This document shows, one piece after another, positions 669-16,077 of a stretch of 20,886 nucleotides of DNA (position 1 is the first letter of the stretch; every line of letters starts with the position of its first letter). The position numbers were made by a program, and so were the translations under genes. The notes beneath the pieces were generated by a model. The model saw only the letters and a program-made list of their open reading frames with translations, was not told the origin of the DNA and searched no databases. Source of the stretch: a virus; the IMG/VR virus record IMGVR_UViG_3300034355_001151, positions 1 to 20,886 of that record; one strand, 5' to 3'.

Positions 669-931
669 TATTCGCCTCTGAGTGCTTCTAAAGAATAATC
701 TAAATACATTCCACCGTCTTCTGTTTCGATAAACTCCGCATAATCATCTAAAATTTCTATTTCCATATCGTCGTGTGTTAATAGATAATCTTTAAAATCG
801 TAATCTTCATCATAAATTCTAGCATAATATGCATCCCTTTTTCCAGTTTCAAAATTATAACTAGGAATAAGACACGCTTTTATACCTTTTGCTGGGAATC
901 GTTTTTCAATTTTTGAGGTTGAATCGCTCAT
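668..931 (-). CDS. Acidic hypothetical protein, 87 aa
   Basis: Unrecognised. The N-terminal third is basic and beta-prone (KIEKRFPAKGIKACLIPSYN) and the rest very acidic (DEDYDFKDYLLTHDDMEIEI, DDYAEFIETEDGG), ending YSLEALRGE. No membrane segment is seen. The ATG at 931 lies inside the 3' end of the preceding gene (26-nt overlap), and the stop overlaps the next start in TAATG, so it is embedded in a coupled operon. The strong charge would suit a protein that mimics nucleic acid, but that is only speculation from composition. Confidence 0.75.
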   Translation of the reverse strand: MSDSTSKIEKRFPAKGIKACLIPSYNFETGKRDAYYARIYDEDYDFKDYLLTHDDMEIEILDDYAEFIETEDGGMYLDYSLEALRGE

Positions 932-1229
932 AATTTTCCTTCATTCGTTTACGTTCTTCATCGGATATTGGTGTAGGATTATCCATGCGATGTTGCAATC
1001 GTTCTCCATCCTCTCCAGTAACGATGTTAGCATCCTTTAGCAGTTGCTGAACTTCAGTATCAAGACACTCTTGATATCCATCCTCAAATCCTTTTGAATG
1101 AGCAACCATGACCATCCAATAACTCAGACCGTCAGAAACAGTTAATTGCTGTCCTTTTATGCCAGAATTGTATTTTTTGAAGAGCTTGTCGGCTTCTTCA
1201 ACTATTTCTAAGTATAGTTTTTCGTTCAT
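906..1229 (-). CDS. Hypothetical protein, 107 aa; first gene of the 1-1229 operon
   Basis: Unrecognised, mostly helical cytosolic protein. It has an N-terminal helix (MNEKLYLEIVEEADKLFKKY), a Trp/Met-rich middle (DGLSYWMVMVAHSKGFEDGY) and a charged C-terminus (SDEERKRMKENYERFNLKN). The GFEDGYQE stretch resembles the repeated G-x2-x-G-Y helices seen in many short phage proteins, but I cannot name a family. It is the first gene after the promoter at 1255-1283. Its 3' end overlaps the next gene by 26 nt. Confidence 0.75.
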   Translation of the reverse strand: MNEKLYLEIVEEADKLFKKYNSGIKGQQLTVSDGLSYWMVMVAHSKGFEDGYQECLDTEVQQLLKDANIVTGEDGERLQHRMDNPTPISDEERKRMKENYERFNLKN

Positions 1230-1296: not shown

Positions 1297-1479
1297 TCAT
1301 ATTTTTGAAGATTGTTTAGGCTTCTCGTTGAACTCTTTTTCTGTATATTCTATGTCATTCAAATACCAATAACGATCACCATCAGGATATTCAACAGCAG
1401 GGCCATCTTCTCGGTGACGCAGATCGTTTAAATACCACTCACGATCACCATTATCAAAAACTTTTACTGTTTTTTTCAA
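1297..1479 (-). CDS. Short YwqK/MORN-like repeat protein, 60 aa, apparently frameshifted copy
   Basis: Last and smallest member of the HREDGPA repeat family here, with only one full repeat (HREDGPAVEYPDG) between two WYLN half-units. The shared C-terminal module ending LLGYxVKVVK is missing and replaced by KPKQSSKI. Paralogues begin ATG-ATT-GAA-TAT-ACA. Here a run of seven A residues puts the expected ATG out of frame, giving a 9-codon reading that ends in TGA. The body is open only from a TTG at 1479-1477, directly after the previous gene's stop and 8 nt from the GGTGG ribosome-binding sequence inside that gene. It could be a working gene with a TTG start or a decaying copy. Confidence 0.5.
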   Translation of the reverse strand: MKKTVKVFDNGDREWYLNDLRHREDGPAVEYPDGDRYWYLNDIEYTEKEFNEKPKQSSKI

Positions 1480-1854
1480 TCATTTTACCACCTTTACTGT
1501 ATAACCCAATAATGCTTCGATTTCTGCTACTGTTAGTTCTTTTACTTTAGAAGTCTTCTTAATGAATTCTTCTTCTGTATATTCTTCGCCGTTCAGATAC
1601 CAATAATGAGCGCCATGTGCATATTCAACAGCAGGACCATCTTCACGATGGAGATTGCCGTTGAGATACCACTCACGATTGCCATTTGCATATTCAATAG
1701 CAGGACCATCTTCTCGGTGATAATTGTCATTCAGATACCAATAACGATCACCATTTGCATATTCACAAGCAGGACCATCTTCTCTGTGGTATTTGCCATT
1801 CAGATGCCAAAAACGAGTACCATTATCATAGACTTTTACGGTGTATTCAATCAT
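1480..1854 (-). CDS. YwqK/MORN-like tandem-repeat protein, 124 aa
   Basis: Three 23-residue repeats of the form HREDGPAxEYxxGxxxWYLNGxx (residues about 20-90) follow an MIEYTVKVYDNGTRFWHLNG start and are closed by EYTEEEF and the common tail KELTVAEIEALLGYTVKVVK. Similar G-x-W-Y-x-N-G repeats occur in MORN_2/YwqK-type proteins and are expected to form successive beta-hairpins. The function here is unknown. The ATG at 1854 has a good ribosome-binding site (AGGAG, about 6 nt away) and its own promoter copy at 1886-1913. It is the only member besides the 4487 gene with an independent promoter. Its 3' end carries the GGTGG ribosome-binding site for the 1479 gene. Confidence 0.85.
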   Translation of the reverse strand: MIEYTVKVYDNGTRFWHLNGKYHREDGPACEYANGDRYWYLNDNYHREDGPAIEYANGNREWYLNGNLHREDGPAVEYAHGAHYWYLNGEEYTEEEFIKKTSKVKELTVAEIEALLGYTVKVVK

Positions 1855-1885
1855 TTCAATCTCCTAAAGTTCCAACCACAAGACT

Positions 1886-1913
1886 ATTTTACTACACTCT
1901 ACAGAAAAGTCAA
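1886..1913 (-). promoter_or_regulatory. Repeated early-type promoter cassette, copy 1
   Basis: Minus strand: -35 TTGACT (1908-1913), 16-nt spacer, -10 TAAAAT (1886-1891), followed by the conserved leader GTCTTGTGGTTGGAA. It drives the 1854 gene. The -35 end overlaps the stop region of the upstream gene (ends 1910). Confidence 0.8.
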
Positions 1914-2092
1914 GCGTTGAGAGGATGATAGGAAAAATGTCTTTCTAAGTTGTGTTCTTGTAAAAATTCTTCTAGTCCACGATCAATTATCTTCTTTAGG
2001 TCATCGTCTGAAAGAAGATCACCTATAGACTCACGAATCCGAGTCTTTAATTTTCCTTCAAAAGTTTCATTAGTTTGAATTTCATTGCTCAT
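1910..2092 (-). CDS. Hypothetical helical protein, 60 aa
   Basis: Unrecognised. The N-terminus is polar (MSNEIQTNETFEGKLKTR), followed by two helix-prone segments (IGDLLSDDDLKKIIDRGLEE and FLQEHNLERHF). No membrane segment is visible. The ATG at 2092 lies 11 nt inside the preceding gene. The gene closes the long transcription unit that starts at the 4521-4549 promoter, and its stop overlaps the -35 of the next promoter cassette. Confidence 0.7.
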   Translation of the reverse strand: MSNEIQTNETFEGKLKTRIRESIGDLLSDDDLKKIIDRGLEEFLQEHNLERHFSYHPLNA

Positions 2093-2504
2093 TATTTTTT
2101 ACTTCCTCATAATTCTCAGCATATTCAAAAATGTAATCAGGAAAATTATATCCTGCTTCTCTCAACATTGTAAGGGTGGAAAGTAATTCTTCTTTATCAA
2201 CCACATTAAAAATTTTTCCATCATACGCTAATCCAATATCCTTATATTCAGCATTTTCTTTTAACCAATTAACTCTTTTATTGCTAAGTAAAACATAATT
2301 TTGTACCCACCTATCTCGAGATTCTTTATCATTTTTATCAAGAAAATTAATCTCTCCCCAATCAGGAACTTTGGGAGCAAGATGTTCGTTAATTCTTTTT
2401 CTACGAGCAACCACAATCGTAACACCACCAGCACAATCATCATATATGTAGAGGTCACTTGTGTTATTATTAGGACATATTGTAGACCATCTACACCAAC
2501 TCAT
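2082..2504 (-). CDS. Hypothetical protein, 140 aa
   Basis: Unrecognised. The N-terminus has two Cys residues and several Asn (MSWCRWSTICPNNNTSDLY), followed by a beta-prone core (GGVTIVVARRK), a Trp-rich charged middle (DRWVQNYVLLSNKRVNWLKE) and a C-terminal acidic tail (FEYAENYEEVKNNEQ). The ATG at 2504 overlaps the stop of the preceding 43-aa gene in an ATGA junction. It sits in the same unit as the repeat-protein genes but contains no repeat itself. Confidence 0.75.
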   Translation of the reverse strand: MSWCRWSTICPNNNTSDLYIYDDCAGGVTIVVARRKRINEHLAPKVPDWGEINFLDKNDKESRDRWVQNYVLLSNKRVNWLKENAEYKDIGLAYDGKIFNVVDKEELLSTLTMLREAGYNFPDYIFEYAENYEEVKNNEQ

Positions 2505-2632
2505 TTCTCAAACCACCGTATTTTTGAATTGGTTTTTTCGTATTCTTCGACGATTTGGTCAAGAGTCCATGCTTCGTCTTGCCAGAAAACAAAATCTGCC
2601 TTTTCTGCTAATTCTCTAACTTTAGGATTCAT
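2501..2632 (-). CDS. Small hypothetical protein, 43 aa
   Basis: Short gene between the repeat-protein array and the 2504 gene. It encodes a charged helical peptide beginning MNPKVRELAEKADFVFWQDE and ending TNSKIRWFEK. ATGA overlaps at both ends (start inside the 3003-to-2629 gene's stop; stop inside the 2504 start) and a GGT-type ribosome-binding sequence in the upstream gene support it as real. No family is recognised. Confidence 0.65.
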   Translation of the reverse strand: MNPKVRELAEKADFVFWQDEAWTLDQIVEEYEKTNSKIRWFEK

Positions 2633-3003
2633 TTTACTACCTTTATCTGATAACCCAACAAAGATTCAATCTCTGCTACAGTGAGTTCTTTTGCCTTAAC
2701 AGTCTTCTTGTTGAATTCTTTTTTTGTATATTCTGCACCATTCAACCACCACTCACGAGTACCATCAGCATATTCAATAGCAGGACCATCTTCCCGGTGA
2801 CACTTGCCATTCAAATACCAAAAACGAGTACCATCAGCATTTTCAATAGCAGGACCATCTATCCGATGACGCTCGCCATTCAGATACCACTCACGAGTGC
2901 CACTTGAATATTCAACAGCAGGGCCATCTTCACGATGGCGCTCGCCATTCAACCACCACTCACGAGTGCCACTATCATATACTTGTACAGCGTATTCAAT
3001 CAT
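2629..3003 (-). CDS. YwqK/MORN-like tandem-repeat protein, 124 aa
   Basis: Family member with three repeats: HREDGPAVEY, HRIDGPAIEN and HREDGPAIEY, each followed by G-T-R-x-W-[WY]-L-N-G. It ends in EYTKKEF and the shared tail LTVAEIESLLGYQIKVVK. It differs from its neighbours in WWLNG units (Trp for Tyr). A 159-bp stretch of this gene (2702-2860) is identical to one in the 4047-to-3742 gene. ATG start with a 4-nt ATGA overlap with the preceding gene, whose last codons supply the ribosome-binding site. Confidence 0.85.
   Translation of the reverse strand: MIEYAVQVYDSGTREWWLNGERHREDGPAVEYSSGTREWYLNGERHRIDGPAIENADGTRFWYLNGKCHREDGPAIEYADGTREWWLNGAEYTKKEFNKKTVKAKELTVAEIESLLGYQIKVVK
2702..2860. 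repeat. 159-bp exact direct repeat, copy A
   Basis: Base-for-base identical to 3815-3973, an offset of 1113 bp. It covers the 3' part of the repeat domain plus the EYTKKEFNKKT segment of the gene. Identity at synonymous positions implies recent gene conversion or duplication. Confidence 0.9.
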
Positions 3004-3305
3004 TTTACCACCTTTACTGTATAACCTAATAATGCTTCAATGTCTGCTACAGTGAGTTCTTTTACTTTAGAAGTCTTCTTGAGAAATTCTTCTTCGGTAT
3101 AACCTGTATCATTCAAATACCACCAACGCCTACCACCAGCAAATTCAATGGCAGGACCATCCTCTCGATGGAGTTTGTCATTCAACCACCAAATACAAGT
3201 ACCATCAGCATATTCACAAGCAGGACCATCCTCTCTATGGAGTTTGCCATTCAACGTCCAACAACGATTACCATTATCAAAGACTTTTACTGTATATTCA
3301 ATCAT
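3000..3305 (-). CDS. YwqK/MORN-like tandem-repeat protein, 101 aa
   Basis: Family member with two repeats (HREDGPACEYADG, HREDGPAIEFAGG) flanked by WTLNG, WWLND and WYLND units, then EYTEEEF-like GYTEEEF and the tail LTVADIEALLGYTVKVVK. Start MIEYTVKVFDNGNRCW. ATG start overlapping the previous stop (ATGA) with AAGGTGG just upstream, inside the preceding gene. Expected to be a small beta-repeat protein in the cytoplasm. No enzymatic motif is visible. Confidence 0.85.
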   Translation of the reverse strand: MIEYTVKVFDNGNRCWTLNGKLHREDGPACEYADGTCIWWLNDKLHREDGPAIEFAGGRRWWYLNDTGYTEEEFLKKTSKVKELTVADIEALLGYTVKVVK

Positions 3306-3745
3306 TTTACCACCTTTATCTGATAACCCAATAATTTTTCGATCTCTGCTATTGTAAGTTCTTTTGTTTTGAAAGTCAACTTGAGAAATTCTTCTTCAGT
3401 ATATTCTACGTCGTTCAAATACCAATAACGACTACCATCAATATCTTCAATAGCAGGGCCATCTATCCGATGACGCTTGCCATTCAAATACCAACAACGA
3501 GCGCCATTGGCATATTCAATAGCAGGGCCATCTTCTCGGTGACGACAGTCATCCAAGTACCAACAACGAGTGCCAGTTGCATATTCAGAAGCGGGACCAT
3601 CTTCTCGGTGAAGATTGCCATTCAAATACCATTGACGAGTGCCATCAGCATCTTCAACCGCAGGACCATCTTCCCGATGGAGTTTGCCGTTGAGATACCA
3701 AAAACGGTCGCCCCTGTCAAGGACTTTTACTATATATTCTATCAC
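3302..3745 (-). CDS. YwqK/MORN-like tandem-repeat protein, 147 aa, GTG start
   Basis: Four repeats (HREDGPAVED, HREDGPASEY, HREDGPAIEY, HRIDGPAIED), one unit reading WYLDDCRHRED where others have WYLNGxxHRED. It ends in EYTEEEF and LTIAEIEKLLGYQIKVVK. The start is GTG (3745), in a GTGA overlap with the previous stop, where sisters have ATGA. The AAGGTGG ribosome-binding sequence is the same. Its N-terminal segment (MIEYIVKVLDRGDRFW) aligns with the other copies, so the GTG start is well supported. Confidence 0.85.
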   Translation of the reverse strand: MIEYIVKVLDRGDRFWYLNGKLHREDGPAVEDADGTRQWYLNGNLHREDGPASEYATGTRCWYLDDCRHREDGPAIEYANGARCWYLNGKRHRIDGPAIEDIDGSRYWYLNDVEYTEEEFLKLTFKTKELTIAEIEKLLGYQIKVVK

Positions 3746-4047
3746 TTTACCACCTTTACTTGATAACCCAGCAATGATTCAATTTCTGATACTGTTAGTT
3801 CTTTTACTTTAGCGGTCTTCTTGTTGAATTCTTTTTTTGTATATTCTGCACCATTCAACCACCACTCACGAGTACCATCAGCATATTCAATAGCAGGACC
3901 ATCTTCCCGGTGACACTTGCCATTCAAATACCAAAAACGAGTACCATCAGCATTTTCAATAGCAGGACCATCTTCACGATGGAGATTGCCATTCAAGTAC
4001 CAATAACGGTCGCCATAATTATTAACTTTTACTTTGTATTCAATCAT
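3742..4047 (-). CDS. YwqK/MORN-like tandem-repeat protein, 101 aa
   Basis: Two repeats (HREDGPAIENADG, HREDGPAIEYADG), then the WWLNGAEYTKKEF segment and tail LTVSEIESLLGYQVKVVK. Half of the gene is identical in DNA to part of the 3003-to-2629 gene (3815-3973), while the N-terminal codons (MIEYKVKVNNYGDRYW) differ. It therefore looks like a mosaic of family members. ATG start in an ATGA overlap with the 4487-to-4044 gene. Confidence 0.85.
   Translation of the reverse strand: MIEYKVKVNNYGDRYWYLNGNLHREDGPAIENADGTRFWYLNGKCHREDGPAIEYADGTREWWLNGAEYTKKEFNKKTAKVKELTVSEIESLLGYQVKVVK
3815..3973. repeat. 159-bp exact direct repeat, copy B
   Basis: Identical to 2702-2860. See that entry. The two copies lie in the same direction within different members of the repeat-protein gene array, so recombination between them would delete or duplicate 1113 bp (two to three genes). 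Confidence 0.9.
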
Positions 4048-4487
4048 TTTACCACCTTTACCGAATAACCCAATAATGCTTCAATCTCTGCTACTGTTAA
4101 TTCTTTTACTTTAAGGGTTTTCTTGTTGAATTCTTCTTCGGTATATTTTACACCGTTCAAAAACCAATAACGAGTACCGCCAGCAAATTCAATAGCGGGA
4201 CCATCTTCCCGATGACGCCTGCCATTCAAATACCAATGGAGAGTGCCACTTACATATTCAACAGCAGGACCGTCTTCTCTATGCAATTTACCGTTTAAAT
4301 ACCATTCAAGATCACCATTTGCATATTCAACAGCAGGACCGTCTTCTCTATGCAATTTACCGTTTAAATACCATTCAAGATCACCATTTGCATATTCAAC
4401 AGCAGGACCGTCTTCTCTATGCAATTTACCGTTTAAATACCAATAACGATCACCATTATCTTCAACTTTTACTGTATATTCAATCAC
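4044..4487 (-). CDS. YwqK/MORN-like tandem-repeat protein, 147 aa, lead gene of the array
   Basis: Four HREDGPA repeats, the first three nearly identical (HREDGPAVEYANGDLEWYLN), closed by KYTEEEF and LTVAEIEALLGYSVKVVK. I place the start at the GTG 4487-4485: it has AGGAG about 7 nt upstream and its context matches the ATG of the 1854 gene base for base. A longer reading to 4514 would start inside the conserved promoter leader. First gene of a unit of five overlapping repeat-protein genes plus three others (4487 to 1910). The internal 69-bp DNA repeats show recent expansion. Confidence 0.85.
   Translation of the reverse strand: MIEYTVKVEDNGDRYWYLNGKLHREDGPAVEYANGDLEWYLNGKLHREDGPAVEYANGDLEWYLNGKLHREDGPAVEYVSGTLHWYLNGRRHREDGPAIEFAGGTRYWFLNGVKYTEEEFNKKTLKVKELTVAEIEALLGYSVKVVK
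4261..4442. repeat. Perfect 69-bp tandem DNA repeat (2.6 copies)
   Basis: Units at 4261-4329 and 4330-4398 are identical, and a third matches for its first 44 bases (4399-4442). 69 bp equals one 23-residue protein repeat. The lack of synonymous change indicates very recent slippage or unequal recombination inside the gene. Confidence 0.9.
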
Positions 4488-4520
4488 TTCAATCTCCTGT
4501 AAAGTTCCAACCACAAGACT

Positions 4521-8292: not shown

Positions 8293-8304
8293 GCGATGGA
8301 TATG

Positions 8305-8331
8305 AAAAGGGCGATAAATTATCGCCCTTTT
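8305..8331 (-). terminator. Intrinsic terminator, copy 1 (after HNH gene)
   Basis: Stem AAAAGGGCGAT / ATCGCCCTTTT with a 5-nt AT loop, symmetric so it can act on both strands. It lies 3 nt after the HNH gene stop. It forms part of a 48-bp sequence (8305-8352) repeated exactly at 9250-9297. Confidence 0.85.
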
Positions 8332-8352
8332 TCGTTATTCAGAAGTGATTAT
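8305..8352. repeat. 48-bp direct repeat, copy 1, flanking the HNH cassette
   Basis: Exact match to 9250-9297 (945-bp offset). It contains the terminator plus 18 nt that encode the last residues of the HNH protein (IITSE, stop), whereas at copy 2 the same bases contain the glycosyltransferase stop codon in another frame. Hallmark of a terminator duplicated on insertion. Confidence 0.9.
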
Positions 8353-9159
8353 CCAATCCTTGAATGATTCAATTTTTCCTCTCAACAAGGAACCAATCCG
8401 ATATTGTTGCCATTTAGCCGCCTTTATGTTGTCAACGAATTGATCTCTGGTTCCAACAAAAACTTCTTCAGTTACAGTGTTTTTCAGAGTAAAAACTGTT
8501 AAATCTATACAATATCCAAAATGATTTTTTCTCATTCCACCCGATTGTCCAATTTTCCCACACACCGGACACGTTACTATTTGCTTGCTTGGGTTTAGGT
8601 CTCCCATTTTTGATATGCTGCATTTTTTTCTATTTTCATCAGATCGCTTGGCTCCCTTCCAATAAATTCTTGCTCTCTCTTTTGCATACTCGGAACACTT
8701 TTTCCCATACATCGGATTATTTTCTCCTGTATGCTTTTCTTTCATGTATTCAGAATGCAAATTGGCAGCTCTTACACGCAATTCAGCAACTTCTCTTAAC
8801 ATTTCCGGAGACAAATCTTCTTCATATATTCGTTGATGTCTATGATCTTGTTTGTTGAGCATTCTCACCAAAGCCGCAGAAAGTTTTCGTTCGGATTGAG
8901 TTTTTTTGCAGAATTTTACTAGCAATACGTGAGCTATTAAATGCTCATAGGCAGTTAGCCACACTTTGTTCGCCAAAGAATTATCACCGCCTATACACGT
9001 TGGTATAATATGATGATGTTCACAATATCCTAGAGCTTGTTTGGCCGTTTTTCTCGGAGAATCTTGCGATACTCTAATGATTGCATTTGATATGAGAGTG
9101 AAGTACTCATTGTAAGCCTCGTTTTTAACGAAGTCATTATGTTCGTGATAAATATTCAT
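8335..9159 (-). CDS. HNH homing endonuclease with NUMOD3 motifs, 274 aa
   Basis: HNH core at residues 46-82: CEHHHIIPTCIGGDNSLAN, with further His at 73 and 77, giving the H-H...N...H metal-binding nuclease signature. NUMOD3-type DNA-binding motifs follow (GENNPMYGKK about 145-154, GDLNPSK about 186-192). A likely zinc site is C197-x2-C200 with H213 and C217. The C-terminal region (FVGTRDQFVDNIKAA ... LLRGKIESFKDWI) fits a NUMOD1/IENR1-like helix-turn-helix. Such proteins cut DNA site-specifically and spread their own gene. It is free-standing here rather than in an intron, and lies between two copies of the glycosyltransferase terminator. ATG at 9159 with AAGGAG 8 nt upstream, inside a small hairpin. 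Confidence 0.93.
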   Translation of the reverse strand: MNIYHEHNDFVKNEAYNEYFTLISNAIIRVSQDSPRKTAKQALGYCEHHHIIPTCIGGDNSLANKVWLTAYEHLIAHVLLVKFCKKTQSERKLSAALVRMLNKQDHRHQRIYEEDLSPEMLREVAELRVRAANLHSEYMKEKHTGENNPMYGKKCSEYAKERARIYWKGAKRSDENRKKCSISKMGDLNPSKQIVTCPVCGKIGQSGGMRKNHFGYCIDLTVFTLKNTVTEEVFVGTRDQFVDNIKAAKWQQYRIGSLLRGKIESFKDWIITSE

Positions 9160-9249: not shown

Positions 9250-9276
9250 AAAAGGGCGATAAATTATCGCCCTTTT
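9250..9276 (-). terminator. Intrinsic terminator, copy 2 (after glycosyltransferase)
   Basis: Same AAAAGGGCGAT / ATCGCCCTTTT stem as at 8305-8331, with its T-rich tract, 17 nt after the glycosyltransferase stop. It is probably the original terminator from which the HNH-linked copy derives. Confidence 0.85.
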
Positions 9277-9297
9277 TCGTTATTCAGAAGTGATTAT
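9250..9297. repeat. 48-bp direct repeat, copy 2, flanking the HNH cassette
   Basis: Exact match to 8305-8352. It includes the stop codon of the glycosyltransferase gene (TAA at 9294-9296 read on the minus strand) and the terminator. Confidence 0.9.
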
Positions 9298-11751: not shown

Positions 11752-13758
11752 TTACATATCAATCAGTAATTGTTCTGAAACAGAATCATTCACTGTAAAT
11801 TCAATCTTATCATCAATCACGTCGGCAATCAGTGAACAATTTGATAGGCGTTCAAATAAGATTTTTTTACTCAATGGAATCTTCACTAATTCATCAATCT
11901 TTCTGGAGATGGGTCTGGCTCCTAATTTTGAGTCAAATCCCTTTTCTGCCAGTAAATCAATAGTCGCCTCGCTAAGAGTTAGCTTGATATTCTTATCATT
12001 AAGTGAATCTTGTAGAACCTTGATGAATTTCAACACTACCTTCTTTATAGCCAACTTGTCTAACTTAGTAAATTTACAAACACAATCTATTCTGTTCCGA
12101 AGTTCTGGCTTAAAGAAGTCCTTCATCGCCTTGTCTTCTTGCCCAGTTTTTTCCAATTGAGTACCAAAGCCGATATTATTTAGCTCATTATCTCTTGCGC
12201 CTAGATTGGATGTCATGATAATGATTGTATTTTTTAGGCTAATGGTTTTACCATTGCTTGAAGTAATTCTTGCATCATCCAGCATTTGTAACATGATATT
12301 CAACACATCTGGGTGAGCTTTTTCAACTTCGTCAAACAAAATAATACTGTATGGATTTTTGCTAACATCCGATATTAGTTTGCCTCCCCCTACTTGTCCG
12401 TCATCAAATCCAACATATCCAGGTGGTGAACCAATTAGGCTTGAAACATTGAATTTTTCCTGATATTCGCTCATATCATACCGAAGAAGCGGCATATCAA
12501 GATGTTCAGAAAGCAGTTTGGCTAATTCTGTTTTGCCGCACCCAGAAGGGCCGGTAAACAAAAAGCTCGCAATCGGTTTTGTCAGAGTTCCTAATCCACT
12601 GAAGTTAATGTAAATCCGTTCAAGAACACTGTTAACCGCTTCTTCTTGGCCATATAGCTTTTGCTTAATATTATCTTCAAGGTCAACAATTCTTTCAGTG
12701 GGTTCATTCTGAAGCCTGTCTACTGGAATTGATGTCAGCTTGCTTAGTTGAGAGATAATTTTTTCTCTATCTACAATGACATTGGATACGTCGTGTGCTC
12801 GTTCGTACGCGCAAGCGCCGTCTAATACATCAATTGAACGATCTGGGTTATGCCTATCATGAATATATCGGCTACCCATTTCAACGGCTGCATCAATTGC
12901 TTCACCATCAATCATAACACCATGGAATAGTGCTAATCTAGGTGCAAGTCCGCGTAAGATTTCTTTTGTTGTTTCTTGATTTGGTTCGTCAATAGCCACT
13001 CTTTGGAATCTACGCATCAATGCCCTATCTTTTTCAAATGATTCGTAAAATTCTTCCCATGTCGTAGAGGCAATCACTTTAAGTGTTCCCTTGGTAATTG
13101 CTGGTTTAAGCATATTGGCGAAGTCTAAGCTGGAACTTGATCCAGAACCGGCTCCTCTCATAGTATGAGCCTCGTCAATAAAAAGAATGGCATCTTCTTT
13201 TGTTTCTAAAGCAGAAATTACTTGCTTGAATTTTTCCTCAAAATCACCACGATATTTTGATCCTGCCACCAATGTGCCAATTTCCAATGACCACACTTGA
13301 TGATTTTTTATAAATTCTGGCACTTCGTCGTTAGCAATTTTTTGAGCTAATCCCTCAACTATTGCCGTATTATGATGGTATATTCCGCTTGGTGTACAAT
13401 ACTTATGAGGGAAAGGCAACGATACGTCATAGACTTCTTGTTCGCCTAAATTTTCTACTTTAACTATTTTTAGTGATCCTTGTTTACTGTCCACCTGCGA
13501 TGTATCAGATATGAGAACAGGATTTTCATTGTCAAATACAACGTGTTTGGTTGAACAAGTCAAAGTATTACCATCGTGAAAATAATATTTCGCAACATCA
13601 TGCTTTTTCTTCACAAATGCTAAGATTGGCTCAGAAGAGTTGGGTGCGGCAATCTTGATATTATGATTGATAGTAACCGGAGATTCATACGGGATATCAT
13701 CTATTCCCAAAATGTTAAATAATTTTTTAATCGGTATGTCAAATGTTTTCGTGGTCAT
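11752..13758 (-). CDS. clpA: Split-intein C-fragment fused to C-terminal part of ClpA unfoldase, 668 aa
   Basis: Residues 1-130 are the intein C-fragment: block B-like CSTKHVVF (S69, H72), block F EVYDVSLPFPHKY and the C-terminal GIYHHN. Thr131 starts the C-extein TAIVEGLAQKI, the direct continuation of the broken P-loop. ClpA features follow: Walker B1 ILFIDEAH (191-198), arginine region RRFQRV, Walker A2 GPSGCGKT (403-410), pore/sensor segments GSPPGYVGFDDGQVGGG, Walker B2 ILFDEVEKAH (473-482), IGF tripeptide (529-531) in the loop where E. coli ClpA has IGL for ClpP binding, and GARPISR near the end (sensor 2). After trans-splicing to the 16023 product, this gives a 747-residue two-ring unfoldase, close to E. 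coli ClpA (758). ATG at 13758 with AAGGAG 9 nt upstream, inside the endonuclease gene (20-nt overlap). Confidence 0.95.
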   Translation of the reverse strand: MTTKTFDIPIKKLFNILGIDDIPYESPVTINHNIKIAAPNSSEPILAFVKKKHDVAKYYFHDGNTLTCSTKHVVFDNENPVLISDTSQVDSKQGSLKIVKVENLGEQEVYDVSLPFPHKYCTPSGIYHHNTAIVEGLAQKIANDEVPEFIKNHQVWSLEIGTLVAGSKYRGDFEEKFKQVISALETKEDAILFIDEAHTMRGAGSGSSSSLDFANMLKPAITKGTLKVIASTTWEEFYESFEKDRALMRRFQRVAIDEPNQETTKEILRGLAPRLALFHGVMIDGEAIDAAVEMGSRYIHDRHNPDRSIDVLDGACAYERAHDVSNVIVDREKIISQLSKLTSIPVDRLQNEPTERIVDLEDNIKQKLYGQEEAVNSVLERIYINFSGLGTLTKPIASFLFTGPSGCGKTELAKLLSEHLDMPLLRYDMSEYQEKFNVSSLIGSPPGYVGFDDGQVGGGKLISDVSKNPYSIILFDEVEKAHPDVLNIMLQMLDDARITSSNGKTISLKNTIIIMTSNLGARDNELNNIGFGTQLEKTGQEDKAMKDFFKPELRNRIDCVCKFTKLDKLAIKKVVLKFIKVLQDSLNDKNIKLTLSEATIDLLAEKGFDSKLGARPISRKIDELVKIPLSKKILFERLSNCSLIADVIDDKIEFTVNDSVSEQLLIDM

Positions 13759-15238
13759 AAATAAGAAACTCCTTACATTTATTAATTTCTGCTATTGGAT
13801 CAATGCTAACATCATGAGACCATACTGTCAACACTTTAAACCCTAACGATTCAATGATTTGAATTCGCTCTTTATCATTTTGATGGATTTGTTCTATAGA
13901 TATTTTTAAGCTAGGGTGGATATCGGTGACCTCAAAAAGTCTGTTATCGCCATGCCAATAACTTCCATGATATTCTATTATTTTGTTTTCCATTTTAAAA
14001 TCCACAAAGTAAATGCCATTCTCGTGTGATATTATCCACTCTCTTGATTTTGCGCCATGAACTGTTTTTTTGGCAATGTCATCCGGCAAAGTCAAATCTA
14101 ACATCATGAAAAAATCTCTGGATTCTCTTGAAATGGATACGTTTGCACTATGATATGATTTGCGTATGGCAACTGCTTTTTCATATCCACGAGAATCCAC
14201 CAATTCCATGAACGTTCTTCCCTTTGATTTATTGATTGCCTCGCGTTCTTCTTCACTATGAGCCATCCAAGTATTTAATCGTTCTCCCATCATTTTTTCG
14301 TACCTACGTGTACCCTCTATATTGCCGTATCTGCGAACGAAATACTCATGATCTCTGGATTGAATTTTTTTAATAATATCACGAGAATCATCCATTGAAA
14401 AACCTTTCTTAATCCAAAAATCCAATGAGCGAGGAGACGGTTCCCCACGAATCACATCGGCTGCAAATTGACTGCTTCTCTTTTGGAAAATTTTTTGCTG
14501 AGTTTTGGCAAATTCAATGTCGTATCCTTTTGATATCCAATATTCAAGTGTATTGGGAAAATTTTTATAGGCACAATCACTGAGTACTCGATTTTTGGCG
14601 CTCTTTATAGAGTGTCCATTATCTATTCCAAATCTCGCTACACAATAATCCAATGAATAATGGTGGCTATTTAAAACTGTGTTTAATCTATTCAATAATG
14701 ATTCCGAAGAATGTTCTCGCGAATTTAAAATATCTACTAAAATACTTGTAGCATATACTGTCTTTGATTCAGGAATAGTATTAAATATTATGTCAAGTTC
14801 ATTCAATATCTCGTCCGACAAATTCTTTTTCAATCTATTCTTTACGTCTTTTTTATTCAAAAAACGATTTCTTGCGTAATCTTCATTTATAGTTGATTTC
14901 ATCTTGTCAACTTTGCCGTAGAATTTTCTTTTTCCACTTTTCTCGCCAAATAATACAGTAAATCTTTCTAATGATCCGGGTTTCAGTGAATGCAATTCAT
15001 TGAATTTAGTAAATAATTCATTTTCAGAATATCCGGTCATCAGCAGATTACATAATGTTGTTATTTGAGTTCCCGACGGGGGTTTATCATAGACCTCCAT
15101 AAATTCCCCCATAAATTTTTCTACTTTAAAGATAGTATCTGTTGGTAAAAAATTTTCAGAAGCCGATAAAAACTTTTTAACCGAAGAAATCTCATGAAAT
15201 TTACTTGCTCGCTGTTTGGGGGTCAGTTTGGGATTCAT
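13739..15238 (-). CDS. Vsr-like (EDxHD-type) homing endonuclease between split-clpA halves, 499 aa
   Basis: C-terminal nuclease region, residues 395-480: D413 in YFVDFK, E422-Y-H424-G, W428-H429, D455 and G466-F-K-V-L-x-V-W473-x-H-D476. This resembles very-short-patch-repair (Vsr) type nucleases and the endonuclease family reported with fractured split-intein genes (Dassa et al. 2009). Residues 60-345 contain repeated DNA-binding-like units such as LEYWISKGYDIEFAKTQQK and LDFWIKKGFSMDDSRDIIKK. It would cut intein-free clpA alleles and drive copying of the whole insert. The gene lies exactly between the intein halves, its 3' end carrying the ribosome-binding site and start of the clpA C-part. 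The ATG at 15238 has AGG 7 nt upstream in a hairpin arm. Confidence 0.88.
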   Translation of the reverse strand: MNPKLTPKQRASKFHEISSVKKFLSASENFLPTDTIFKVEKFMGEFMEVYDKPPSGTQITTLCNLLMTGYSENELFTKFNELHSLKPGSLERFTVLFGEKSGKRKFYGKVDKMKSTINEDYARNRFLNKKDVKNRLKKNLSDEILNELDIIFNTIPESKTVYATSILVDILNSREHSSESLLNRLNTVLNSHHYSLDYCVARFGIDNGHSIKSAKNRVLSDCAYKNFPNTLEYWISKGYDIEFAKTQQKIFQKRSSQFAADVIRGEPSPRSLDFWIKKGFSMDDSRDIIKKIQSRDHEYFVRRYGNIEGTRRYEKMMGERLNTWMAHSEEEREAINKSKGRTFMELVDSRGYEKAVAIRKSYHSANVSISRESRDFFMMLDLTLPDDIAKKTVHGAKSREWIISHENGIYFVDFKMENKIIEYHGSYWHGDNRLFEVTDIHPSLKISIEQIHQNDKERIQIIESLGFKVLTVWSHDVSIDPIAEINKCKEFLIYDHENI

Positions 15239-15240
15239 AA

Positions 15241-15295
15241 TTCAACCTATATGTTTAGTATATTATATTTATACTTAAAGAACATATAGGTTGAA
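15241..15295 (-). promoter_or_regulatory. RBS-sequestering hairpin upstream of homing endonuclease
   Basis: Perfect 15-bp inverted repeat, TTCAACCTATATGTT (15241-15255) and AACATATAGGTTGAA (15281-15295), 25-nt loop. On the minus-strand RNA the downstream arm holds the AGG ribosome-binding site (15248-15246) of the endonuclease ATG at 15238. Read-through RNA from clpA would fold and hide it. No U-run follows, so it is not a normal terminator. Confidence 0.85.
15266..15273 (-). promoter_or_regulatory. T4-type late promoter TATAAATA inside the hairpin loop
   Basis: Exact TATAAATA on the minus strand within the loop of the 15241-15295 hairpin. With T4 spacing, transcription would start near 15260, after the upstream arm, giving an RNA with a free ribosome-binding site for the endonuclease. 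Confidence 0.75.
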
Positions 15296-15303
15296 TTTTA
15301 GGA

Positions 15304-16023
15304 TTAAATCTCAAACTCTTGTAGTTGCAACAATTGCTCTTCTGATAACGTTGATATATCAATTTCTACACGAACAATCTCTTCTGAACCCAAGCACTTA
15401 CCGCAACCTGGTTCCCCGACGAGTAACACGTTCGCCTTAAATCGTCTTGCCAACACAGTGATCATTTCGTCTAATTCCCCCGAACGACCAATCAATGGCT
15501 CAAGTTTGTTCTTATCTGCAAGGGCGGTTAATTCAACACAATATTCTTCAAGGATTTCTTGAGCTTGCGTATCAGTTACCTTTACAGCATCTTGCTTATA
15601 ATTCTTTTGCCAATGTGATATAAACTCTTGCTTAGTGAATCCGTGCTTTAGCATGAAGTAATGCGAATGGCTATTAGTTTCTGCCAATAATGCAAGATAT
15701 AAATCTAATGTAGTGGCTGATCTTCTACCAGTAAACAATACTTGAGTTAATGCTCTATTAAAGCATCGTTCAAGCGCATTAGTCTTTTTTGGTTGATAGC
15801 TGCTATTTGATCCGGCATAGGGTGCAATAGTATCAAGATAGGAATCAATCTCACTATCAATGTTGTCAATGTCTACACCGTATTCAGCAGATAGTTTTCT
15901 AAATGGCGCATGTCTGATAAGCGATAAAAGCATATGCTCGGTCAGAACATATTCATGATCCTTTTCTTTTGCTAATTTTACTGCTTGTTCAATGATTGTA
16001 CTGATTTCTGGATTATGGTTCAT
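15304..16023 (-). CDS. clpA: N-terminal part of ClpA fused to short split-intein N-fragment, 239 aa
   Basis: Residues 1-145 form a Clp N-domain-like region (EHMLLSLIRHAPFRKL; ALTQVLFTGRRSATTLDLYL). ELTALADKNKLEPLIGRSGE then leads into the first AAA+ ring. The extein stops at LLVGEPGCGK (209), i.e. Walker A up to its Lys. Cys210 begins the intein N-fragment CLGSEEIVRVEIDISTLSEE and ten more residues (codons 15307-15396), ending at TAA. The fragment has eight acidic residues and one Arg. Residues 1-209 alone lack a complete P-loop and cannot bind ATP normally, so splicing with the 13758 product is needed. The gene follows dnaJ after a 54-nt gap. Confidence 0.95.
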   Translation of the reverse strand: MNHNPEISTIIEQAVKLAKEKDHEYVLTEHMLLSLIRHAPFRKLSAEYGVDIDNIDSEIDSYLDTIAPYAGSNSSYQPKKTNALERCFNRALTQVLFTGRRSATTLDLYLALLAETNSHSHYFMLKHGFTKQEFISHWQKNYKQDAVKVTDTQAQEILEEYCVELTALADKNKLEPLIGRSGELDEMITVLARRFKANVLLVGEPGCGKCLGSEEIVRVEIDISTLSEEQLLQLQEFEI

Positions 16024-16077
16024 TTTATTCCCTATTTTGAGATCGTGAAGTTACTTTATCACTTCCTTGGTTTCTAA

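Follow-up and report, generated by a model that had tools for sequence, protein, structure and literature searches.

The window, a 20,886-nucleotide stretch of viral DNA (IMG/VR record IMGVR_UViG_3300034355_001151), carries a homing endonuclease gene within clpA, between the halves of a split intein. Its leader points to a switch governed by transcript source, a reading we hold to be probable: the Shine-Dalgarno sequence (SD) would be hidden in RNA read through from clpA, and a promoter in the hairpin loop would free the endonuclease late. Read-through RNA has both arms of the hairpin and would fold to hide the endonuclease SD, while translation of each clpA half would begin independently at its own start codon. 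At the late stage of infection, RNA polymerase carrying a phage gp55-type sigma factor would initiate inside the loop, at about 15260, and we propose that the short late leader, lacking the 5' arm, would allow endonuclease translation. As read from the DNA, endonuclease production is probably confined to the late phase of infection.

A mobile unit in clpA

A relative (L004, 7 kb) that is 96-97% identical in both flanks lacks exactly the segment listed first in Table 1. Its empty site, GGTAAG/ACGGCA (the slash marks the break), is the clpA Walker A motif, broken at GK/T. Hence a single mobile unit comprises IntN, the spacer with its hairpin, the endonuclease and IntC. The intein halves lie exactly at the extein junction, with an IntC that ends in HHN/T, and by its sequence the split intein is of the atypical type with a short IntN and a long IntC. 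A query of viral contigs with IntC gave no close copy, and its best matches were inteins. The preliminary description had called the endonuclease split-intein-linked, and the flanking IntN and IntC bear this out. The C-terminal half of clpA has its own SD, TAAGGAG, within the 3' end of the endonuclease gene, so endonuclease translation is not required for its production.

The profile matches of the endonuclease were exclusively to Vsr, though weak, and the three best PDB matches of its predicted model were 1cw0 and 1vsr (both Vsr) and 3r3p (I-Bth0305I), with Foldseek E values of about 0.2 and probabilities of 0.90-0.98. Residues D413, E422, G425 and H429 were invariant in 34 sequences. From the conserved D, E and H and the model, the protein is predicted to belong to the EDxHD (I-Bth0305I/Vsr-like) group, in agreement with the earlier statement that its family differs from that of I-TevI.

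Table 1 Features of the clpA locus, in window positions
Feature	Position	Strand	Basis
Whole mobile unit (IntN tail, hairpin spacer, endonuclease, IntC), 2028 bp, at clpA GK/T	13369..15396	-	L004 empty site
clpA N-terminal half + 30-aa IntN (CLGSEEIVRVE...; IntN 15304-15396)	15304..16023	-	Clp_N 1.5e-10, phrog_4871; empty-site junction
EDxHD/Vsr-like homing endonuclease (predicted), 499 aa	13739..15238	-	phrog_13076 endonuclease; TIGR00632 vsr 0.005; Vsr/I-Bth0305I matches
130-aa IntC (13369-13758) + clpA C-terminal half	11752..13758	-	phrog_4871 2e-197; IntC best matches inteins, E 0.001
5' arm of hairpin, AATTCAACCTATATGTT	15281..15297	-	Repeat search + RNA fold
TATAAATA late-promoter-like loop element	15266..15273	-	TAAATA begins at -33 from ATG; lineage core TAAATA, peak -40..-21
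Predicted late transcription start	15259..15262	-	Inferred from T4 spacing
3' arm of hairpin, AACATATAGGTTGAATT, bears SD	15239..15255	-	Repeat search + RNA fold
Endonuclease Shine-Dalgarno region, ATAGGTTGA	15242..15250	-	SD accessibility analysis
dnaJ-clpA gap, candidate sigma-70-type promoter for clpA, TTGATT-17-TAAAGT	16024..16077	-	Weak in window (4 mismatches); conserved in relatives

Two other regions of the window also drew attention. A NUMOD3-type endonuclease gene (8335-9159) has near-identical terminator-like hairpins on either side, at 8304-8333 and 9250-9278 (AAAAGGGCGATAA and TTATCGCCCTTTT), which look like a terminator duplicated around an inserted homing gene; L004 also has a copy close to the same place. 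At least six paralogous small genes, with repeats like YLNGxxHREDGPAxEYxxG, form an array at 1297-4514.

The leader hairpin and the late promoter code

On the minus strand, 65 nt lie between the stop codon of clpA-N/IntN (15304-15306) and the ATG of the endonuclease (15238-15236); an inverted repeat with a 25 nt loop, the top-ranked pair of the window, occupies 59 of them. The preliminary description had reported a perfect 15-bp repeat; the repeat is indeed perfect, but its length is 17 bp. Upon Markov-1 resampling of the window (n=200), the longest repeat obtained was 14 bp and 17 bp was reached in 0/200. The folding that had been suggested as a check was run on minus-strand RNA 15310-15220 and placed the SD in the hairpin at -23.2 kcal/mol (z -7.4), a stability matched by 0/200 shuffles; the loop is predicted to form a second, inner stem (AGUAUA/UAUACU). 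As the preliminary description had it, the downstream arm holds the endonuclease ribosome-binding site: ATAGGTTGA, with AGG as its SD core, comes shortly before the ATG. The predicted unpaired probability of the SD was 0.001 in read-through RNA and 0.38-0.48 for starts at 15261 or 15259, varying with the folded length. An RNA started at the predicted site would be without the entire 5' arm.

The exact late-promoter motif claimed for the loop is also present, and it is the only TATAAATA of the window. One copy against 1.8 expected by chance is an unremarkable number, and the weight of the motif rests in its placement. Raw TATAAATA counts per genome were dropped as a test, since they proved uninformative (even T4 gives 32 vs 24 for the reversed control), and a strand- and position-resolved hexamer test was used instead. 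Upstream of genes in four relatives having clpA about 72-74% identical, TAAATA was the top strand-biased hexamer (104 sense vs 39 antisense); its occurrences peaked sharply at 21-40 nt upstream of the starts and were preceded by C or A. The TAAATA of the window's loop falls inside this peak. The same hexamer ranked first in phage PA5oct, which also encodes a gp55-type late sigma factor. Such a factor (phrog_12791, E 1e-63 to 1e-73) was found in 8 of the 20 relatives searched, including 7/7 above 230 kb, the shorter records being possible fragments; the window record is itself a 20.9 kb fragment with no sigma gene in it. The strand bias and position of TAAATA together with the gp55-type sigma of the relatives support a T4-type late promoter.

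The proposed switch supposes that a clpA transcript precedes that of the loop promoter. Within the dnaJ-clpA gap of relatives, an exact TATAAT, TATACT or TACAAT was present in 53/67, and a sigma-70-type promoter with at most 3 mismatches was found before 67% of relatives' clpA genes vs 21% of shuffles. The window's own candidate in this gap is weak (Table 1). The conserved sigma-70-type promoter of this gap was seen in many large uncultured phages (L005-L083), often also with TAAATA about 75 nt upstream of clpA. The genes upstream of the window's clpA include virion-type genes, which are likely late, and clpA RNA may in part be late as well; the switch would then sort by transcript source, not by time alone.

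Recurrence in other split genes and competing readings

EDxHD endonucleases were gathered from viral contigs and phages and clustered at 80% identity, giving a discovery set (n=92) that takes in the window itself. We scored perfect stems of 7 bp or more over the SD, together with a TAAATA placed so that the RNA would begin upstream of the SD and lack half or more of the 5' arm. Stems covering the SD were found in 12/92 endonucleases vs 13/630 other genes of the same loci, and the full geometry in 8/92 vs 2/626 (p 2e-6), with 0/92 for the antisense motif. Among the bearers of an SD stem, the motif was rightly placed in 8/12 endonucleases vs 2/12 control genes (p 0.018). An independent second set gave 1/49 (L373) vs 0/350 (p 0.12 taken alone), and both sets combined 9/141 vs 2/976 (p 3e-7). 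Recurrence is thus significant in the discovery set and weak in the replication set by itself. One discovery match (L226), where the motif is implausibly distant, may be due to chance, and the strict perfect-stem criterion misses leaders with G-U pairs or bulges (L335, possibly L411). A thermodynamic survey of SD accessibility by folding was not significant (7/92 vs 29/626, p 0.17) because AT-rich leaders yield noisy values. Applied to T4, the survey test passed six genes, including I-TevII and gene 49 (named from the T4 annotation) and one that, from its protein sequence, we take to be lysozyme e; the test thus detects known cases. Only 1/919 genes passed in the four relatives of the window, and the majority of EDxHD endonucleases are without such a leader.

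Hairpin-bearing endonucleases were found in split recA/uvsX (PA5oct EST35_0208-0210, where the IntN is only 17 aa), gp41/dnaB helicase (L175, L335), terL (L195, L238, L255), polB (L373) and a gp46-like gene (L001, without an exact TAAATA), and the arrangement is also present in the Straboviridae phage VmeM-32 (L104). The exact TATAAATA occurs in the window and in L175, L195, L255, L335 and L373. The arm sequences differ wholly between elements, which share only complementarity to the respective SD. One and the same helicase gene harbours the homologous elements L175 and L335, 49% identical in protein sequence. The hairpin (z -4.0 and -7.2), the identical loop core TATATAAATAT and TATAAATA are retained in the two elements; between them an A-U pair is replaced by U-A, one compensatory change in one sequence pair. 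The timing control put forward in the preliminary description retains its sequence premises: an SD in a hairpin, the lineage promoter TAAATA at its usual distance, a gp55-type sigma in eight relatives, a sigma-70-type promoter before clpA in relatives, and a geometry that recurs in the nuclease family.

The survey also turned up arrangements of separate interest. EST35_0208 and EST35_0210 of PA5oct (MK797984, 134722-137728; L103:2139-5145), which the annotation calls hypothetical and structural protein, prove to be RecA/UvsX halves divided by a short-IntN split intein, and the EDxHD endonuclease EST35_0209 lies in between; GATAAATA sits before EST35_0209. Within 8 kb, L001:1-7714 has gp41-like helicase and gp46-like ATPase genes, each with a split intein and its own EDxHD endonuclease. 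A degenerate hairpin scan of DNA gave 19 stretches, mostly chance occurrences in coding sequence, with one real-looking non-homing case; in L086, L093 and L094, of a different viral lineage, the exact TATAAATA lies in an SD-hiding hairpin before a non-homing 221-aa P-loop protein. The leader of a small gene of the window (906-1229; minus strand 1220-1285) has an 8-bp stem with TAAATA overlapping the 5' arm, its SD overlap being marginal and its fold no better than shuffles. Caulobacter phage Cr30 (L107:2520-2590) has a strong endonuclease-leader hairpin away from the SD, then a tiny ORF (ATGAATACTTGTATCTAA) before the start.

The hairpin could instead be a plain attenuator that lowers endonuclease translation on every transcript regardless of timing, with TATAAATA unused or an AT-rich accident. 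Such an attenuator would fit the almost complete concealment of the SD in read-through RNA, the SD hairpins of some relatives (such as L165 and L166) that have no TAAATA in position, and the loop of L001, which holds only TATATATA; by our own estimate the octamer would occur by chance in a loop this AT-rich with a probability of about 0.03. We nevertheless consider it unlikely, given the excess of rightly placed motifs over control genes, their absence in antisense, the agreement of the loop motif with the promoter code and position of the lineage, and its retention in the covarying pair. Translational coupling, whereby ribosomes terminating at the IntN stop would open the hairpin and the endonuclease would be made in step with clpA-N, seems distinctly improbable. 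The stop codon is just 6 nt upstream of the 5' arm and other family members (e.g., L110, L112) overlap their upstream genes, but with the usual footprint a ribosome halted at the stop would cover few of the 17 pairs, and the gap is longer elsewhere (L001).

We give very little credence to the inverted repeat being a protein-binding site (operator), an RNA-processing site or a terminator rather than a ribosome-binding site switch. T4 I-TevI does bind an operator over its own late promoter (PMC2988022), but the best 18-nt match of the spacer to the homing site was 12/18, equal to that of random window regions, and a homing-site-like operator, the autorepression feature of I-TevI, was rejected. 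No U run follows the stem, and the arms differ wholly between elements yet retain their pairing with the respective SD. The switch by transcript source remains our preferred reading.

Comparison with known systems

The I-TevI gene of the T4 td intron encodes a GIY-YIG enzyme, and its SD stays inaccessible in the long early or middle transcripts until an adjoining upstream late promoter gives RNA without the 5' arm (PMC2988022, PMC3014915). The precedent invoked by the preliminary description is therefore established, and the window leader, as read from its sequence, resembles it in having the SD in the 3' arm and a late-promoter sequence placed to drop the 5' arm. Unlike I-TevI, the window endonuclease resides in a split intein in clpA and not in a group I intron, appears to be an EDxHD/Vsr-like nuclease, and has no homing-site-like operator in its spacer. 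According to Gibb and Edgell (reviewed in PMC3014915), I-TevI is translated late so that ribosomes stay clear of the intron RNA while it folds. Splicing of split inteins takes place at the protein level and needs no RNA folding, so this protection cannot apply here and a delay would have to serve something else. If the switch is real, the timing or toxicity of cutting would be the better general explanation. The broader proposal is evenly balanced in our judgement: that split-intein endonucleases of T4-like and jumbo phages repeatedly and independently evolved a ribosome-binding site hairpin with a built-in late promoter, the delay serving a purpose other than intron RNA protection. PA5oct has the same arrangement in split recA/uvsX, which makes a cultured Pseudomonas phage available for testing this.

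Dassa et al. 2009 reportedly defined fractured genes, in which atypical split inteins occur with EDxHD endonucleases. The window element is like these (I-Bth0305I-type) in its short IntN and in the intein halves flanking a free EDxHD/Vsr-like endonuclease gene; what differs in the present description is the putative regulatory leader. A text search combining split intein, homing endonuclease, late promoter and hairpin found no paper, most subscription papers being beyond the reach of the search.

Outside introns, the endonuclease genes mobE (HNH) of Aeromonas phage Aeh1, which also splits the host gene nrdA, and segB of T4 have SD-sequestering hairpins (PMC2988022); these HNH or GIY-YIG enzymes have no split intein, unlike the window's EDxHD endonuclease. 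The T4 genes for lysozyme e, soc and gene 49 form a hairpin on early RNA whose 5' part is removed by a late TATAAATA promoter (PMC3014915); the leader logic is the same, although these are not homing genes. Such control is thus known in several families (GIY-YIG I-TevI, I-TevII and segB; HNH I-TevIII and mobE) and in e, soc and 49 (PMC2988022, PMC3014915). Hence convergent control of homing genes, as proposed in the preliminary description, is not new in itself. On the sequence evidence, the EDxHD endonucleases would be the third nuclease family with this control, in a new residence, the split intein, and outside the T4 family proper.
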